From NCBI GenBank assembly GCA_016223085.1, contig JACRPS010000011.1, positions 62,001 to 126,000 on the forward strand: a DNA stretch of 64,000 bases, given 5' to 3'. The notes below the pieces were generated by a model. The model was not told where the DNA came from, searched no databases, and saw only the letters and a list, made by a program, of their open reading frames with translations. Each line of letters begins with the position of its first letter. Position 1 is the first letter of the stretch. Source of the DNA: Chloroflexota bacterium (GTDB lineage: Bacteria > Chloroflexota > Anaerolineae > Aggregatilineales > Phototrophicaceae). Positions 5,941 through 16,072 of the stretch are shown here, in pieces. A program made the translations under genes and the position numbers.

Positions 5941-7230
<1,290 letters not shown>

Positions 7231-7343: not shown

Positions 7344-8429
7344 ATGGCATTAAATGGAACGAATCCCCTCAACCAGAATTTTATGATGCACCCGGACCGG
7401 CAGGTGGGCATTGTCGGTTACGGCGCGTATGTGCCGCGTTACCGGCTGCCGGGCGCGGAAATCGCCCGCGTGTGGACAAACGGCCTGGGCGGCAGCCCGG
7501 TGAAAGAGAAGGCCGTCGCCGGATTGGACGAGGACGTGACCACCATGTCCATCGAAGCGGCGCGTAACGCCCTCGCCCGCGCTCGGATTGATCCGCAGGC
7601 TATCCGCGCCGTGTGGGTCGGCAGCGAAAGCCACCCCTACGCGGTCAAGCCCACCAGCACGATTGTGGCGGAAAGCATCGGCACGTCGCCCAATATTACT
7701 GCCGCCGACTGGGAATTCGCTTGCAAGGCGGGTACGGAAGCGGTGCAGGCTTCGATTGGTTTGATCGGCAGCGGCATGGTCGGTTACACATTGGCAATTG
7801 GCATGGACACGGCGCAGGGACGCCCCGGCGACGCGCTGGAATACACGGCGGCGTCCGGCGGCGCGGCTTACATCCTCGGCCCGGCGGATGAAGCCTGCGC
7901 GGTCTACCAGGGCAGCTACAGCTTTGTGACCGACACGCCTGATTTCTGGCGGCGTCCAGGGCAGGAATACCCCAGTCATGGCGACCGCTTCACCGGCGAA
8001 CCAGCTTATTTCCACCACACGCTGTCAGCGGCAAACATGCTGCTGGAACAGATGGGCACAACGGCGGCAGATTACTCCTATGCCGTGTTCCACCAGCCGA
8101 ACGTCAAGTTCCCCTCGCGCGCGGCGGAAATGCTCGGCTTTAAGCCGGAGCAAATCAAAACCGGCCTGCTGTGCAACGAAATCGGCAACGTGTACTCCGG
8201 CTCATCCATGCTCGGCCTGACCGCCGTGCTGGACGTGGCGCAGCCGGGCGACCGGATTTTGATGGTCAGCTATGGCAGCGGCGCGGGTTCAGATGCGTTT
8301 GACATTCGCGTGACGGAGCGCATCACCGAGATTCAGCACCTTGCGCCGACCACCCGCGATTACATCAACCGCCGCACGCCGGTGGATTACGCCACCTACG
8401 CCCGTTATCGCGGAAAACTGAAGGATTAA
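7344..8429 (+). CDS. Hydroxymethylglutaryl-CoA synthase, archaeal type
   Basis: A 361-aa enzyme that condenses acetyl-CoA with acetoacetyl-CoA to HMG-CoA. The catalytic triad is intact: Glu95 in [11 protein letters not shown], nucleophile Cys127 in FACKAGT, and His250 in [10 protein letters not shown]. The length and motifs match the archaeal clade, whose members form a complex with a thiolase and a DUF35 protein that passes acetoacetyl-CoA directly between active sites. The next genes are exactly a thiolase homologue and a DUF35 homologue, but both look degenerate here. AGGA lies 7 bases before the ATG. An in-frame ATG at 7383 is a possible later start. Confidence 0.95.
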
Positions 8430-8511: not shown

Positions 8512-9663
8512 ATGCGAGATGTAGCGATTATTGGAATTGGACAGATTCCCGTTGGCGAACACTGGGACAGCAGCCTGCGCCAGTTGGCCGCCGAAGCCGC
8601 ACAGGCGGCATTAAGGGACGCCGGCCTGAAAGCGGTAGACGCGCTGTACGTCGGCAACGCTTTTGGCGCAGCTTTCAGCGAACAGACGCATCTGGGCGCG
8701 CTGGTCGCGGACTATGCCGGGCTGAACGGCGTGGAGGCGTTCTCCGTCGAAGCGGCAGACGCTTCCGGCGGCGCGGCGCTGCGAACGGGTTATCTGGCGG
8801 TGGCGTCCGGTGCGGTGGATACGGCGCTGGTGCTGGGCGTGGAGAAGGCCACTGACACCGTCGGCGACGCGCGCACCCGTGCCCGCAACGTCAGTCTGGA
8901 CGCTGATCTGGAAGCGATGCACGGCGCGACGCAGACGGCGCTGGCCGCACTGTTGATGCGGCGCTATATGCACGAATATGGTCTGGAACTGAGCGCGTTT
9001 GAAGGCTTCAGCATCAACGCCCACGCCAACGGCGCGCGCAACCCCAATGCCATGTTCCGCAACATGCTCAAGCCCGGCGGCTTTGCCCGCGCCCCGATGA
9101 TCGCGGACCCGGTGAACCTGTTTGACAGCGCGCCGGATGCTGATGGCGCGGCGGCAGTTATCCTGACCAGCGCCGAACGCGCCGCCGATCTCGTGCCGCA
9201 GCCGGTTCGGATTACCGGCAGCGCCGTTGCCACCGACACACTGGCGCTGCACGACCGCCCCGATTTGCTCTACCTGGGCGCGGCCAATCGGTCGGCTTAT
9301 AAGGCTTATGCTCAGGCAGACATTCAGCCAAACGACGTCAGCCTGTTTGAACTGCACGACGAATACACCGTGCTGGCGGCGCTCTCGCTGGAAGCGGCGG
9401 GTTTCGCCGAACGCGGCCAGGGCTGGAAACTGGCGCAGGACGGCGCGCTTGGCCTGAACGGGTCGCTGCCAGTCAGCACCTTCGGCGGGCTGAAAGCGCG
9501 CGGCAACCCGGTGGGCGCGACCGGCGTATATCAGGCGGTGGAAGCCTGCCTACAACTGCGCGGTCAGGCCGAGGACAATCAGGTGCCAAACGCGCGTATT
9601 GCGCTGATTCAGAACCTCGGCGGGTTGGGCGCAACGGCGGTTACCCATTTATTCCAAGTGTAA
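8512..9663 (+). CDS. Thiolase-fold protein with lost catalytic residues
   Basis: A 383-aa member of the SCP2/archaeal thiolase clade (acetyl-CoA acetyltransferase). The fold motifs are clear over the full length and the gene is intact. The key residues are changed: the nucleophile motif ACASGG reads ADASGG (Asp83, codon GAC at 8758), the GHPVGATG His is Asn332, and the second Cys of GGSGATC is Ala376 (GGLGATA). Only His282 of the HDCFT motif remains, as HDEYT. Thus normal Claisen condensation looks impossible. It may be a structural subunit that holds the HMG-CoA synthase, or have another acyl-CoA role. RBS AGGA lies 11 bases upstream. Confidence 0.85.
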   Translation: MRDVAIIGIGQIPVGEHWDSSLRQLAAEAAQAALRDAGLKAVDALYVGNAFGAAFSEQTHLGALVADYAGLNGVEAFSVEAADASGGAALRTGYLAVASGAVDTALVLGVEKATDTVGDARTRARNVSLDADLEAMHGATQTALAALLMRRYMHEYGLELSAFEGFSINAHANGARNPNAMFRNMLKPGGFARAPMIADPVNLFDSAPDADGAAAVILTSAERAADLVPQPVRITGSAVATDTLALHDRPDLLYLGAANRSAYKAYAQADIQPNDVSLFELHDEYTVLAALSLEAAGFAERGQGWKLAQDGALGLNGSLPVSTFGGLKARGNPVGATGVYQAVEACLQLRGQAEDNQVPNARIALIQNLGGLGATAVTHLFQV

Positions 9664-9854: not shown

Positions 9855-10028
9855 ATGCAAATCTCACGGCACTGGCGCTTGAACCCCCTGCGTTATCGCC
9901 TTCAGGGTGTCCGCTACGACAACGGCACAGTCAGCCTTCAGGCGCGGCCCCAGCCGGTCAGCGACCTGCGCGATACCCGCGAAACGGTCGCCGTCAAGGA
10001 AAAATCCGCGCTCATGACCGGGCGCTAG
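9855..10028 (+). CDS. N-terminal half of a DUF35 protein, zinc ligands lost
   Basis: A 57-aa ORF starting at an ATG 10 bases after GAGGAG. It begins with the HWRLNPLRYRLQG helix typical of DUF35 acyl-CoA-associated proteins, where a rubredoxin-like zinc ribbon (two CxxC motifs) should follow. Here the matching stretch VRYDNGTVSLQARPQP has no cysteine. The TAG stop at 10026 is in the same frame as the downstream OB-fold ORF, so the pair is one ancestral gene divided by a stop codon. The AGGA used to start the second ORF overlaps this stop, suggesting coupled translation. It could be a working two-chain protein or a decaying gene. Confidence 0.6.
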   Translation: MQISRHWRLNPLRYRLQGVRYDNGTVSLQARPQPVSDLRDTRETVAVKEKSALMTGR

Positions 10029-10037
10029 GAATTGCCG

Positions 10038-10343
10038 ATGAACGAACCACGCAAGCAGGTTGAGGTCCAGCGCGAGCAGTATACGTTTGCCGGCACGGGC
10101 GAGGTTTACAGCTATACCACCTTGCAGCAAGCGCCCGAAGGCTTTGAAGATCAAGCCCCCTACGTGCTGGCGCTGGTCAAGCTGGACGAAGGCCCGATGG
10201 TCACAGCGCAGCTGACCGATCTCGACGGCCCGGTAGCAATTGGCGACCGGGTGGAAATGGTCACGCGCAAGCTAACGACCGAAGGCAGCCGGGGTGTGAT
10301 CGTCTACGGCTACAAATTTCGCCCCATTTTGCCGCGTTCGTGA
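10038..10343 (+). CDS. DUF35 OB-fold protein (C-terminal half)
   Basis: A 101-aa protein matching the OB-fold half of DUF35 proteins: GTGEVYSYTT, GFEDQAPYVLALVKL, and the closing YGYKFRPI motif are characteristic. In archaea the full-length protein bridges thiolase and HMG-CoA synthase and helps form the shared CoA-binding site. This copy starts at ATG 10038 in frame with the preceding ORF and 9 bases after its TAG stop, with AGGA 7 bases upstream. It lacks any zinc ribbon. Its neighbours argue for a role with the HMG-CoA synthase and thiolase-like protein. Confidence 0.75.
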   Translation: MNEPRKQVEVQREQYTFAGTGEVYSYTTLQQAPEGFEDQAPYVLALVKLDEGPMVTAQLTDLDGPVAIGDRVEMVTRKLTTEGSRGVIVYGYKFRPILPRS

Positions 10344-10605: not shown

Positions 10606-11784
10606 ATGAAAAAAGTTATTGTTTTGTTGTTAGTGGTGCTGTCGCTCGGCATCACCGTAACCAGCGCGCAGGATGCGCCTATGCAGTCCATCGGCGCGGG
10701 CGAAGGCCAGGTGGACATTGTGGCCTGGCCGGGATACATCGAACGCGGCGACACCGACCCCGCCTATGATTGGGTCACCAGCTTCGAGGAGGAAACCGGC
10801 TGCAAGGTCAACGTCAAAACCGCCGCGACCTCCGACGAGATGGTGGCGCTGATGAACGAAGGCACGTTCGACCTGGTGACGGCCTCCGGCGATGCCAGCC
10901 TGCGCCTGATCTATGGTGGCCGCGTCCAGCAGATTAACCCCGACCTGATTCCGAGCTGGAGCACCGTAGACGAACGGCTACAAAACGCACCCTGGCACAC
11001 CGTTGATACCGACGGCGATGGCGAACTGGAACATTACGGCGTGCCGTACCAGTGGGGGCCAAACGTGCTGATGTACAACACCGAGGTGTTCCCGGAACCG
11101 CCGACCAGTTGGAGTGTCGTCTTTGAGGAACAAACACTACCGGACGGCCAGTCAAACAAAGGTCGCGTGCAGGCGTATGACGGCCCGATTCACATCGCCG
11201 ACGCCGCTCAATACCTGATGTACCATCAGCCGGAACTGGGCATTACCGACCCCTACGCGCTCGACCGAGACCAGTTTAACGCCGCGCTCGACCTGCTGCG
11301 CCAGCAGCGCGAACTGGTCGCCCGTTACTGGCACGACGCCTTCGTCCAGATTGACGACTTCACCAACGAAGGCATTGTCGCGTCCGGTTCGTGGCCGTTC
11401 CAGGTCAACCTGCTGAAAGCCAACGGCCAGCCGGTGAGCAGTGTCGTGCCGGAAGAAGGCGCGACCGGCTGGGCGGATACGACCATGATGCACATCAACG
11501 CGCCGCACCCGAACTGCGCCTACCTGTGGCTGGAGCATTCGCTGAACCCGAAACTCCAGGGCGACCTGGCGGCGTGGTTTGGCTCGGTGCCGGCGGTGCC
11601 GGCAGCCTGCGAAGGCAATGAACTGCTGGGTGACGAGGGCTGCCAGACCAACGGTTTTGACGACTTCGAGAAGATCCGCTTCTGGAAGACGCCGACCGCT
11701 AACTGCGGCGATGATCGCGGCGAGGTCTGCGTGCCGTATTACGAGTGGGTGACGAGCTACATTGCTGTCATCGGCGGGCGTTAA
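10606..11784 (+). CDS. potD: Polyamine-type ABC transporter, substrate-binding protein
   Basis: A 392-aa solute-binding protein of the PotD family, first gene of a potD-aldehyde dehydrogenase-potABC operon. The N-terminus is a signal peptide (residues 1-21, ending TSAQ) without a lipobox Cys, so how it is held at the cell surface is unclear. The start of the mature chain (VDIVAWPGYIERG) and the TYDLVT-like segment FDLVTASGDAS match the family. Late cysteine-rich segments (PAACEGNELLGDEGC, NCGDDRGEVC) could form disulfides. GGAG precedes the ATG. Ligand is likely spermidine or putrescine, judged from the family and the operon. Confidence 0.85.
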   Translation: MKKVIVLLLVVLSLGITVTSAQDAPMQSIGAGEGQVDIVAWPGYIERGDTDPAYDWVTSFEEETGCKVNVKTAATSDEMVALMNEGTFDLVTASGDASLRLIYGGRVQQINPDLIPSWSTVDERLQNAPWHTVDTDGDGELEHYGVPYQWGPNVLMYNTEVFPEPPTSWSVVFEEQTLPDGQSNKGRVQAYDGPIHIADAAQYLMYHQPELGITDPYALDRDQFNAALDLLRQQRELVARYWHDAFVQIDDFTNEGIVASGSWPFQVNLLKANGQPVSSVVPEEGATGWADTTMMHINAPHPNCAYLWLEHSLNPKLQGDLAAWFGSVPAVPAACEGNELLGDEGCQTNGFDDFEKIRFWKTPTANCGDDRGEVCVPYYEWVTSYIAVIGGR

Positions 11785-11789
11785 TTCCT

Positions 11790-11812
11790 GTAGGGGCACG
11801 GCGTGCCCCTAC
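11790..11812. repeat. Short palindromic repeat, GGGGCAC core
   Basis: 23 bp with arms GTAGGGGCAC/GTGCCCCTAC and a 3-base centre, between potD and the aldehyde dehydrogenase gene. In the RNA it could shield the 3' end of potD and raise its level over the rest of the operon. Confidence 0.75.
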
Positions 11813-11835
11813 CTCCCCTTCTGTGAGGAATTAAG

Positions 11836-13278
11836 ATGGACTACAAACTGTGGATAGATGGTCGGTGGACGGACAGCCAGGGCGGCAGCCGCATGGCGAT
11901 TGAAAACCCGGCCACCGGCGAGAAAATTGCCGACGTGATTGACGCCAGCCGCGCCGACGTAGACACCGCCGTTCAGGCCGCCCACCGCGCCTTTTACGAT
12001 GGCCGCTGGTCGCGTTTAACGCCTGCCGAACGGTCACTGGCAATCTGGCGGCTGGCGGAACTGCTGGAAGAACGCGCGGAGGAATTTGCGCGGCTTGAAT
12101 CAGACAACACCGGCAAGCCGTTCCAGATGGTCAGCCTGGGCGCGGACCTGCCGTTCAGCGTAGACAACCTGCGCTTCTTCGCCGCCGCCGCGCGGGATAC
12201 ACATGGCCACAGCGCAGGCGAATACGCCAGGGGCTTCACCTCGATTTACCGCAAAGAGCCGGTTGGCGTGGTCGGGCAAATCACCCCCTGGAATTACCCG
12301 CTGATGATGGCAATCTGGAAGATCGGCCCGGCGCTGGCGGCAGGCTGCACCATTGTGCTGAAGCCTGCCCCCACCACCCCGCTGACAACCCTGCTGCTGG
12401 CTGAACTGATCGCCGAAGCGGGCATCCCGGATGGCGTGGTGAACATCGTCACCGGCGGCAACGATACCGGGCAGGCATTAGTTGAACATCCCGAGGTACG
12501 GATGGTCAGCCTGACCGGCTCCACCAACACGGGCAAGAAGATCATGAAGACGGCGGCGGACACCCTCAAACGGGTGCATCTCGAACTGGGTGGCAAAGCG
12601 CCGTTTATCGTGTTTGACGACGTAGACATCGAACAGGTGGCGGCCATCGCCACCCTGACCGGCACGTTCAACACCGGCCAGGACTGCACCGCCTCCACCC
12701 GCGTGTACGTCGAAACAAGCCGCTACAACGACGCCACCGAAGCGATTGTCGAAGCGATGCGGAACGTCAAAATCGGCCTGCCCTATGACGACGGCGTGCA
12801 GATGGGGCCGCTGATTTCCCGCGTCCAGCGCGAACGGGTGCAGGGTTTTGTCGAACGAGCCAAAGCATCCGGCGCGCAGGTGCTCACCGGCGGCAGCATC
12901 CCGTCTGACCACGTCGGAGGTTACTACTTCGAGCCAACCGTGATTGTCAACGCCGACCAGCGGTCGGAGATCATCCAGAGCGAAGTATTTGGGCCGGTGC
13001 TGACAATCAATACGTTTGACAGCGAAGCCGAAGCCGTGCGGCTGGGCAACGACGTGCAGTACGGGCTGGCGGCGTCGGTGTGGACGAAGGACATTGGCCG
13101 CGCCATGCGCGTGGCCGCGCAGTTGGAGTTTGGCACGGTGTGGGTCAACGATCACATTCCGCTGGCGTCAGAAACGCCGCACGGCGGCTTTAAGCAGTCG
13201 GGCTTTGGCAAAGACCTGTCCGCCGAAGCAGTGGCAGATTACAAAGTCACCAAACATGTGATGGTGAAGAACGCATGA
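11836..13278 (+). CDS. Aldehyde dehydrogenase, aminobutyraldehyde/betaine aldehyde type
   Basis: A 480-aa NAD(P)-dependent aldehyde dehydrogenase. Catalytic Cys284 (NTGQDCTAST) and general base Glu250 (LELGGKAP) are present, as are the PWNYPL cofactor-loop and GSTNTGK Rossmann motifs. The overall pattern is closest to gamma-aminobutyraldehyde and betaine aldehyde dehydrogenases. Its place between the binding protein and the other parts of a polyamine transporter suggests it oxidises 4-aminobutanal formed from imported putrescine, giving GABA; no amine oxidase or transaminase is next to it. GAGG lies 8 bases before the ATG, and its stop overlaps the potA start by 4 bases. Confidence 0.9.
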   Translation: MDYKLWIDGRWTDSQGGSRMAIENPATGEKIADVIDASRADVDTAVQAAHRAFYDGRWSRLTPAERSLAIWRLAELLEERAEEFARLESDNTGKPFQMVSLGADLPFSVDNLRFFAAAARDTHGHSAGEYARGFTSIYRKEPVGVVGQITPWNYPLMMAIWKIGPALAAGCTIVLKPAPTTPLTTLLLAELIAEAGIPDGVVNIVTGGNDTGQALVEHPEVRMVSLTGSTNTGKKIMKTAADTLKRVHLELGGKAPFIVFDDVDIEQVAAIATLTGTFNTGQDCTASTRVYVETSRYNDATEAIVEAMRNVKIGLPYDDGVQMGPLISRVQRERVQGFVERAKASGAQVLTGGSIPSDHVGGYYFEPTVIVNADQRSEIIQSEVFGPVLTINTFDSEAEAVRLGNDVQYGLAASVWTKDIGRAMRVAAQLEFGTVWVNDHIPLASETPHGGFKQSGFGKDLSAEAVADYKVTKHVMVKNA

Positions 13279-14324
13279 CCACCCCGGTAAAACCTTCCGT
13301 CGCCGTCCGGCTGGCTGACGTATGCCGGTATTTTGGCGAGGTCAAAGCCGTTGACCATGTGACTCTGGATATTTACGACGGCGAGTTTTTCTCCTTGCTC
13401 GGCCCTTCGGGGTCGGGCAAGACCACCTGTCTGCGCCTGATCGCCGGCTTCGAGCAGCCCACCTCGGGCAGCATCCAGCTCTACGGGCAGGAAGTCGCCA
13501 GCGTGCCGCCCTACGAGCGCGACGTAAACACGGTGTTTCAGGACTACGCGCTGTTCCCGCACATGACCGTCGGCCAGAACGTAGCCTACGGGTTAATGGT
13601 CAAAAAAGTACCAAAGGCCGAACGCGAGCGCCGCGTGCGCGAGATGCTGGATATGGTGCGGCTGCCGGGCATGGAAAACCGCAAGCCGTCGCAGCTTTCC
13701 GGCGGGCAGCGGCAGCGGGTGGCACTGGCGCGGGCGCTGGTGAATCAGCCGCGTGTGCTGCTGCTGGACGAGCCGTTGGGCGCGCTCGACCTCAAACTGC
13801 GCCAGCAGATGCAGATTGAACTGAAAGCGATCCAGGAACGTATCGGTATTACCTTCATTTTCGTCACCCACGATCAGGAAGAAGCCCTGACGATGAGCGA
13901 CCGGCTGGCGGTGTTTAATCACGGCAAAATCGAGCAGGTAGGTACACCCGCCGATCTATACGAACGCCCGGCAACGGGCTTCGTCGCGGGTTTCGTCGGC
14001 ACAACCAATCTGGTCAGCGGCGACGTGGCGTACAGACTGACCGGCTCACCGGAAATGTTCTCGATTCGACCGGAAAAAATCCGTCTTTGCCCGCCGGATA
14101 CACCGATCACAGACGACCTGCATGGTGTTGGCGGCACAGTACGGGATGCGATCTACCTGGGCATGCACACCCGCTATCTGGTGGAAACCGATGCCGGCTG
14201 TGATTTGATTGTGGTGCAGCAAAACCTGGAGTCGTCCTCGGCGGACATTCACGCCACACGCGGCAGCCGGGTGAAACTGCTGTGGCAGAAGGCTAGCGCC
14301 CGCCATCTGACGGAGACAAACTAA
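13275..14324 (+). CDS. potA: Polyamine ABC transporter ATP-binding protein
   Basis: A 349-aa ATPase that powers the importer from the cytoplasmic side. Motifs in order: Walker A GPSGSGKTT, Q-loop FQDYALFPH, signature LSGGQRQR, Walker B VLLLDEPLGALD, and switch His in THDQEEA. A C-terminal TOBE-like domain (about residues 240-345, starting near the FVGTTNLVSG segment) is present, as in PotA. ATG overlaps the aldehyde dehydrogenase stop (ATGA), indicating translational coupling. Confidence 0.93.
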   Translation: MTTPVKPSVAVRLADVCRYFGEVKAVDHVTLDIYDGEFFSLLGPSGSGKTTCLRLIAGFEQPTSGSIQLYGQEVASVPPYERDVNTVFQDYALFPHMTVGQNVAYGLMVKKVPKAERERRVREMLDMVRLPGMENRKPSQLSGGQRQRVALARALVNQPRVLLLDEPLGALDLKLRQQMQIELKAIQERIGITFIFVTHDQEEALTMSDRLAVFNHGKIEQVGTPADLYERPATGFVAGFVGTTNLVSGDVAYRLTGSPEMFSIRPEKIRLCPPDTPITDDLHGVGGTVRDAIYLGMHTRYLVETDAGCDLIVVQQNLESSSADIHATRGSRVKLLWQKASARHLTETN

Positions 14325-14325
14325 G

Positions 14326-15271
<946 letters not shown>

Positions 15272-15285
<14 letters not shown>

Positions 15286-16072
15286 TCCGACCGGACACGC
15301 TTCACTGGGGCTAAAAATCGCCGTCGGGCTGGTGCTGCTGTTCCTGCACTTCCCGCTGCTCATCATCCTCCTGTATGCTTTCACGACGGAAGAAGCCTCG
15401 TTCCAGTTCCCACCGCCGGGTTTGACCACACAATGGATTGGCGAACTCGTCAACCGGACTGATTTCTGGAACGCGCTCAGCCTGTCGCTGTCGGTCGCGG
15501 CGGTGGCAACGCTGCTGGCAATCGTGTTGGGCACGCTGCTGGCCGCTGCCATCTACCGGGGCAAATTCTTCGGACGGGAGGCGTTGACGCTGCTGGTCGT
15601 CCTGCCGATTGCGCTGCCCGGCATCGTCACCGGCATTTCGCTGCGTTCCGCTATCAGTCTGGTGGATTTGGACTTTACATTCTGGACGATTGTGATCGGC
15701 CATACCACCTTTTGTATTGTCACGGTGTACAACAATGTGATCGCCCGGCTGCGACGCACGGCGCACTCGCAAATCGAAGCCTCGATGGATTTGGGCGCTT
15801 CGACCTTCCAGACGTTCCGCTACGTGGTGCTGCCGAATATCGCCACCGCGCTGCTGGCGGGCGGGATGCTGGCCTTCGCGCTGTCGTTTGACGAGGTGAT
15901 CGTGACGACCTTCACGGCAGGCCAGCAGCAAACGCTGCCGATCTGGATTCTCAGCCAGCTCACGCGCCCGCGCGACCGGCCCGTGACCAACGTCGCCGCG
16001 CTGTTTGTCATCCTTGCCACGTTTATCCCGATTTTGATCGCCTACCGCTTCACGCGGGAAACGAGCGAGTAA
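15272..16072 (+). CDS. potC: Polyamine ABC transporter permease 2
   Basis: A 266-aa permease with about six helices and the EAA motif [21 protein letters not shown]. It starts with TTG inside the end of potB, supported by AGGAGG (15256-15261) ten bases upstream and by the family-like N-terminus; no ATG fits. Together with PotB it forms the membrane channel. A palindromic repeat closes the operon. Confidence 0.9.

Follow-up and report, generated by a model that had tools for sequence, protein, structure and literature searches.

The window, which is the whole 64,000-nucleotide stretch of Chloroflexota DNA that we analyzed, contains a mevalonate operon whose genes all lie on the plus strand in the order HMG-CoA reductase (HMGR), HMG-CoA synthase (HMGS), thiolase, and a DUF35 protein divided into an N-terminal (DUF35N) and a C-terminal (DUF35C) reading frame (Table 1). 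The three genes of the archaeal HMGS/thiolase/DUF35 complex are found together here, and the same order is seen in many relatives. At positions 10606-16072 a solute-binding protein, an aldehyde dehydrogenase, an ABC ATPase, and a permease are encoded in a row; the aldehyde dehydrogenase sits within this transporter block, and the last permease (15272-16072) was assigned by eye.

Table 1 Features of the mevalonate gene block in the window.
Feature	Position	Strand	Basis
HMG-CoA reductase (HMGR), first in the block	5941..7230	+	Pfam PF00368, E 8.6e-115; NCBIfam TIGR00532, 429 bits vs cut-off 260
HMG-CoA synthase (HMGS), archaeal type, catalytic Cys/His/Glu present	7344..8429	+	TIGR00748, 541 bits, and PRK04262, 550 bits, both above cut-off; motifs
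Pseudo-thiolase of the SCP2/archaeal acetoacetyl-CoA thiolase family, catalytic Cys and His absent	8512..9663	+	PF22691, PF00108; PRK06064, 426 bits vs cut-off 420; 7YVY and 6ESQ by sequence and fold
Thiolase codon 83, GAC = Asp, place of the nucleophilic Cys	8758..8760	+	Codon read; alignments
Thiolase codon 332, AAC = Asn, place of the catalytic His of GHPxGATG	9505..9507	+	Codon read; alignments
DUF35 N-terminal part, separate small ORF (MQISRHWR...), no Cys	9855..10028	+	Homologous mini-ORFs in relatives; profile match
DUF35 C-terminal OB-fold, separate ORF	10038..10343	+	PF01796, E 1.7e-21; separate ORF in relatives too

The thiolase gene encodes 383 residues in an intact, full-length frame, as an earlier reading of the sequence alone had stated. 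Sequence family and fold both place the protein among the archaeal-type acetoacetyl-CoA thiolases of the SCP2-thiolase branch: it scores above the PRK06064 cut-off, and a sequence search matched it over nearly its full length to the thiolases of Pyrococcus furiosus (PFC_04095, 7YVY; the best match, E 1.6e-114) and Methanothermococcus (6ESQ). It falls short of the acetyl-CoA acetyltransferase equivalog NF053570, scoring 360.6 against a cut-off of 600. An AF2 model of the protein has a confident thiolase fold (pLDDT 93.8, pTM 0.94), and a fold search with this model returned 7YVY as the closest structure by E-value and gave a TM-score of 0.97 to 6ET9 chain C.

Thiolase catalysis proceeds via an acyl-Cys intermediate. 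In the window protein the catalytic Cys of the ACASGG motif is absent, as is the catalytic His of GHPxGATG, and their places are taken by Asp83 and Asn332, respectively. This pair of substitutions was the central claim of the sequence-only reading, and it is borne out by the codons (GAC and AAC) and by alignment to 6ESQ and 7YVY, where the two residues fall on the Cys and on the His of GH(A/P)xGATG; the P. furiosus enzyme, by contrast, keeps both. The catalytic pair does not lie elsewhere in the sequence, as the sole Cys of the protein is Cys346, within a predicted C-terminal helix (334-349). The protein does retain His282 of the HDxF motif, which here reads HDEY, along with the QNLGG motif. 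These retained elements could be taken to mean that some thiolase activity persists without the Cys, by way of Asp83 or His282. However, all 26 of the 26 live rows have the Cys, as do both solved relatives, and given the acyl-Cys chemistry we regard such activity as highly improbable. Here and below, a row is called live when Cys83, His282, and His332 are all kept, and dead when this set is not kept. A further proposal, that Ala376 marks the loss of a second Cys, proved undiagnostic: position 376 is V in 20, I in 4, and A in 2 of the 26 live rows, V in 6ESQ, and I in 7YVY. The Cys of 6ESQ falls one place further on, at 377, where the live rows have V, I, or F.

The neighboring enzymes had been said to keep their catalytic residues. 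For HMGS this is upheld by the motifs in 78 sequences, with the window included and the named set (below) left out: the catalytic Cys lies in FACKAG in 78 of 78, the His in FHQPN in 76 and LHQPN in 2, and the Glu in GSESH in 77 and GTESK in 1. For the window HMGR the residues were judged by eye only, against motifs that we take to be the catalytic ones.

We surveyed the thiolase across Chloroflexota in three sets. The relatives' set covers 61 genomes, 58 of which gave a match at E 1e-40, and 42 orthologue rows were taken from it, with three rows left out beforehand. Residue 83 in these 42 rows is D in 32, E in 9, and G in 1; residue 332 is N in 39 and H in 3; and residue 282 is H in 41 and N in 1. 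HMGS was scored as adjoining in 37 of the 42, two further rows (L053, L077) lie at contig ends, and three (L066, L068, L094) are dead D/N copies from three genomes of one genus (G043, G049, G054), around which the 11 kb that were fetched contain no HMGS match. Archaeal-type HMGS was found in 65 of 301 genomes of the phylum, our own included; 40 of these 65 loci were fetched as the phylum set. The named set consists of the best 80 of 580 matches from genome contigs, with record titles that name Chloroflexota or groups within it.

In total, 125 of 146 HMGS-adjacent thiolase rows from these overlapping sets are dead and 21 are live. As the sets overlap (for example, L128 with L178 and L048 with L168), rows more than 82% identical were also removed, which left 93 dead and 14 live among 107 HMGS-adjacent rows. 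By set, the live rows number 11 among the 40 rows of the phylum set and 10 among the 67 of the named set, and the 39 rows of the relatives' set include none; one live row belongs to a Thermoflexus MAG (L199). Another residue occupies position 83 in 124 of the 125 dead rows, the remaining one (L198) missing this region, and none of the 146 rows has lost a His while keeping the Cys. The dead state is present across the same genus, family, order, and class as the window and in other families of the phylum. It includes named strains such as Leptolinea tardivitalis YMTK-2 (L192; G, C, and N at 83, 282, and 332) and Thermanaerothrix daxensis GNS-1 (L247; D, D, and N). The loss therefore spans most of the sampled HMGS loci of the phylum, which goes beyond what had been read from the window itself.

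The replacing residues vary in the wider set and are more uniform around the window. Among 95 dead rows, residue 83 is D in 40, G in 35, E in 18, Q in 1, and S in 1. Position 332 of these rows is occupied by N, D, F, H, or Y, and 32 of them lack the HDxF His. The window falls in a starred, all-dead clade of 31 rows, which includes a record named Aggregatilineales (L176) and so makes the class Anaerolineae very likely for the window's genome. In this clade, 23 rows have D and 8 have E at position 83, and position 332 carries N in 29 rows and D and H in one row each. Because the substitutions are conserved within this clade, and the same state recurs in many genomes, we rule out a sequencing error, a local mutation, or chance.

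The variety of residues prompted us to consider many independent losses, and this idea is not upheld. A tree of 123 thiolase rows built without the catalytic columns places the 95 dead rows on one side of a branch, requiring 1 change, with weak support (79). On the HMGS tree the dead/live label needs 6 changes and the starred branches force 2, but the HMGS data do not reject a tree in which the 14 live rows are kept together (p-AU 0.277). With live rows included, residue 83 itself changes 25 times on the thiolase tree. A single old loss combined with a few thiolase exchanges fits these results, as do a few losses; one loss is compatible with the trees rather than proven by them.

The DUF35 partner has also changed, a feature of the locus that the sequence-only reading had not included. 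According to passages of PMC6996347, every DUF35 protein whose structure had been characterised at that point binds zinc, and does so at equivalent positions. Beside live thiolases, a DUF35 protein is encoded in 20 of 21 loci, and two CxxC pairs are present in 20 of 20. Of the 125 loci with dead thiolases, 92 have a DUF35 protein, with both CxxC pairs in 32, one in 3, and none in 57, and it was not found nearby in the other 33, these counts being taken without regard to relatedness. DUF35 proteins that lack the zinc cysteines were seen exclusively next to dead thiolases. A single DUF35 chain with a four-Cys zinc ribbon is not present in the window, which instead has two ORFs and no CxxC. The same two-ORF arrangement, likewise without zinc ligands, is seen in the window's relatives (e.g., L038-L062), where the gaps range from 2 to 32 bases and the frames often differ, and we therefore conclude that the split is real and not the result of a single stop codon. 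DUF35N alone has no Pfam match, but its profile aligns, with a probability of 97.1, to columns 1-36 of DUF35 proteins that are in one piece. The zf-ChsH2 domain was found in a protein of a live operon (L132) and not in the N-terminal part in the window. The tree calls for 3 changes in the zinc state of DUF35 and for 2 in its splitting. Elsewhere in the phylum, undivided DUF35 proteins that have no zinc cysteines adjoin dead thiolases (L148, L152, L159, L162, L164).

Once dead, the thiolase diverges faster than its neighbors. Mean pairwise identity at live and dead loci is 0.638 and 0.607 for HMGR, 0.698 and 0.692 for HMGS, and 0.677 and 0.535 for the thiolase. Positions that are conserved beside live thiolases are kept beside dead ones at 139 of 164 sites in HMGR and 140 of 163 in HMGS, compared with 86 of 147 in the thiolase, and the relaxation is therefore confined to the thiolase. 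The thiolase positions kept least are C83, F141, and N145 (0), K78 (0.01), and H332 (0.05). Even so, the dead thiolase gene is under purifying selection: dN/dS is 0.015-0.093 in seven of eight pairs of close relatives, with dS near saturation in some, and 0.197 in one pair in which HMGS also reaches 0.157. DUF35N evolves faster, with a dN/dS of 0.242 in the window/L038 pair.

These data bear on whether the thiolase is a decaying gene en route to loss, held only by its position in the operon. Its faster divergence would fit this view, the zinc loss and the splitting of DUF35 resemble erosion, and the copy in one genome (G047, L087) is frameshifted. However, HMGR and HMGS of G047 are frameshifted too, which points to its assembly, and the low dN/dS values argue against decay. 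In addition, no internal stop occurs in any listed match from the 61 genomes of the relatives' set, and the state extends from the genus to other families. The window thiolase itself, with its intact frame and low dN/dS, shows neither of the pseudogene signs we looked for, a broken frame or selection relaxed across the whole gene, and decay is, in our judgment, very improbable.

Acetoacetyl-CoA could be supplied by other enzymes in these genomes. The sequence-only reading had suggested looking for a second intact thiolase, and the search of the window's own genome returned four classical thiolases, with GHPxGxxG in four of four and the Cys motif pattern in three of four, as well as a paralogue that has both Cys and His. 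Across 33 classical thiolase loci, these four included, GHPxGxxG is present in 33 and the Cys motif pattern in 27. A thiolase match elsewhere in the genome, at E 1.6e-38 or better, was found in 42 of 43 genomes with a dead copy, our own included. The genome G020 (97% complete, 560 contigs), which has a dead operon thiolase, yielded nothing stronger than a match at E 2.3e-5, a weak one that may be to the dead copy. Dxr was not found in any of the 26 dead-copy genomes searched (our own and 25 others) and was matched in 9 of 14 controls. Together with the type 2 IPP isomerase present in our genome, the lack of a Dxr match suggests that mevalonate is probably the isoprenoid route of these genomes; an archaeal-type pathway is described as encoded by some Chloroflexota in a section of PMC13001223.

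The Cys/His paralogue (G000:C9:7490-8635; L007, L078) is 56% identical to the window thiolase and lies away from HMGS, and small genes that resemble toxin-antitoxin genes by eye adjoin it. It is possible to imagine that the dead thiolase and this intact paralogue combine on the synthase into a mixed thiolase that is active. Within the genus, 15 of the 17 genomes do have a second match of 53-56% identity, and the five fetched (L078, L089, L090, L091, L093) carry Cys and His. This heteromer is nevertheless quite unlikely, as the paralogue of our own genome has no HMGS or DUF35 match in its fetched 11 kb (L078), and in several relatives the dead copy is the sole match (e.g., G018-G021).

Taken together, we think it likely that the operon thiolase is an old pseudoenzyme, kept as a non-catalytic subunit of an HMGS/thiolase/DUF35 assembly; the complex, the inactivity, and the shared CoA site are inferred. 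This agrees in the main with the sequence-only proposal of a dead, structural thiolase with acetoacetyl-CoA made elsewhere, and such a role fits best because of the wide conservation, the purifying selection, the varied replacements, the intact synthase, and the other motif-bearing thiolases. Ala376 adds no weight to it, and docking to HMGS would follow the example of the archaeal complex. A fused HMGS-thiolase AF2 model (L039, 32 paired rows; built without DUF35 and without homodimers) did not give a confident packing (pTM 0.55) and speaks neither for nor against docking. In the archaeal complex, as outlined in parts of PMC12329534, the CoA site is shared by three proteins, and acetoacetyl-CoA passes from thiolase to HMGS without release. 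We hypothesize that in Chloroflexota with archaeal-type HMGS the catalytic Cys and His of the operon thiolase were lost early, perhaps once, and that the thiolase body was retained as a non-catalytic part of the assembly. Because each of the three proteins contributes residues to the CoA interface of the archaeal complex, CoA binding by the synthase would still depend on the bodies of the thiolase and DUF35, though the thiolase would make nothing. Acetoacetyl-CoA would then come from ordinary thiolases encoded elsewhere, as a free pool with no channelling.

The best reading of the pseudo-thiolase in its presumed HMGS assembly is as a variant of the known archaeal complex. It resembles the thiolase of the Methanothermococcus thermolithotrophicus complex (6ESQ/6ET9) in family, in predicted fold, and in having the same partner genes side by side; it differs from it in the two catalytic replacements and in a DUF35 that is split and without zinc ligands. 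PhlABC (PpATase) of Pseudomonas protegens offers a mirror image: the portion of PMC6392133 consulted describes a three-part architecture in which one thiolase-fold subunit is without catalytic residues, but there the loss, of Cys and Glu, is in the HMGS-like PhlA, and it is the thiolase-like PhlC that is functional. PhlA is thought, in the same portion, to be necessary for a properly folded PhlABC complex. By analogy with PhlABC and the archaeal complex, we infer that the dead thiolase would serve HMGS by completing the CoA site and the assembly. Another thiolase-fold protein, ST0096 of Sulfolobus tokodaii (4YZO), has Ser at the place of the Cys in our alignment, although it keeps the His; archaea may harbor more dead members. 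A search of open-licence papers found no account of such a pseudo-thiolase.

Several observations count against a structural role. Among them are the three dead copies with no HMGS match nearby (L066, L068, L094), the weak thiolase match of G020, and the faster evolution of DUF35N. Another is the uniformity of the window's clade, where position 83 is always acidic and position 332 nearly always Asn, a greater uniformity than one would expect of free drift. The protein could be a repurposed enzyme in which the acid at 83, Asn332, and His282 run another reaction (e.g., decarboxylation, thioester hydrolysis, or retro-aldol cleavage), in the manner of the steroid aldolases Ltp2 and Sal. Thiolase-fold aldolases with DUF35 partners are known: the relevant parts of PMC12329534 describe Ltp2-ChsH2(DUF35) and Sal-Shy(DUF35), which do no thiolase chemistry, and report that Sal has Gly in place of the SCP-2 thiolase catalytic Cys. 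However, these aldolases use Tyr or Tyr/Cys acid-base residues, and their YDHF/YDCY motif is not found at the HDxF place of the window protein, which has no such set and sits in a mevalonate operon. The wider dead set, with its variation at 83 and 332 and its frequent loss of the HDxF His, has no common catalytic set, and the HMGR/HMGS context is unchanged. We consider a new reaction unlikely. We give no better odds to a related proposal, restricted to the window's clade, that the acid-Asn pair was selected and that the former thiolase pocket now senses or processes acyl-CoA and gates HMGS.

A further point against a structural role is that HMGS can perhaps do without a dead thiolase next to it. 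No full thiolase was called beside HMGS at 13 of the 80 loci of the named set, three of which (L217, L236, L242) hold a fragment cut by a contig end. A family member was found somewhere in 9 of these 13 genomes at E 1e-40, the best match having a Cys at position 83 or its equivalent in 7 and being dead in 2 (G360, G371), and none was found in 4; the genome of L211 (G363) gave no thiolase family match at this threshold. In the Caldilineaceae loci L213, L216, and L231 (G364, G365, and G367) HMGS and reductase have no thiolase nearby, and each genome encodes a Cys/His thiolase elsewhere (L280, L278, and L279), those of L278 and L280 adjoining a DUF35 match. At L233 and L235, DUF35 directly follows HMGS with no thiolase called beside it. 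Since HMGS loci exist whose thiolase is live and unlinked or was not found, the weight that we give to the structural role is slightly reduced.

Genes such as this one match thiolase family models, yet they should not be counted as a source of acetoacetyl-CoA in metabolic models. Two testable questions follow from the finding, namely what non-catalytic service a thiolase body provides to HMGS and whether channelling is needed, and laboratory work looks possible, as the named strains L. tardivitalis YMTK-2 and T. daxensis GNS-1 hold dead copies. If the pocket were indeed to sense or process acyl-CoA, a former enzyme would govern the entry into isoprenoid synthesis in these bacteria. It seems that thiolase catalysis has been dropped, and the protein body kept, in much of the sampled phylum.
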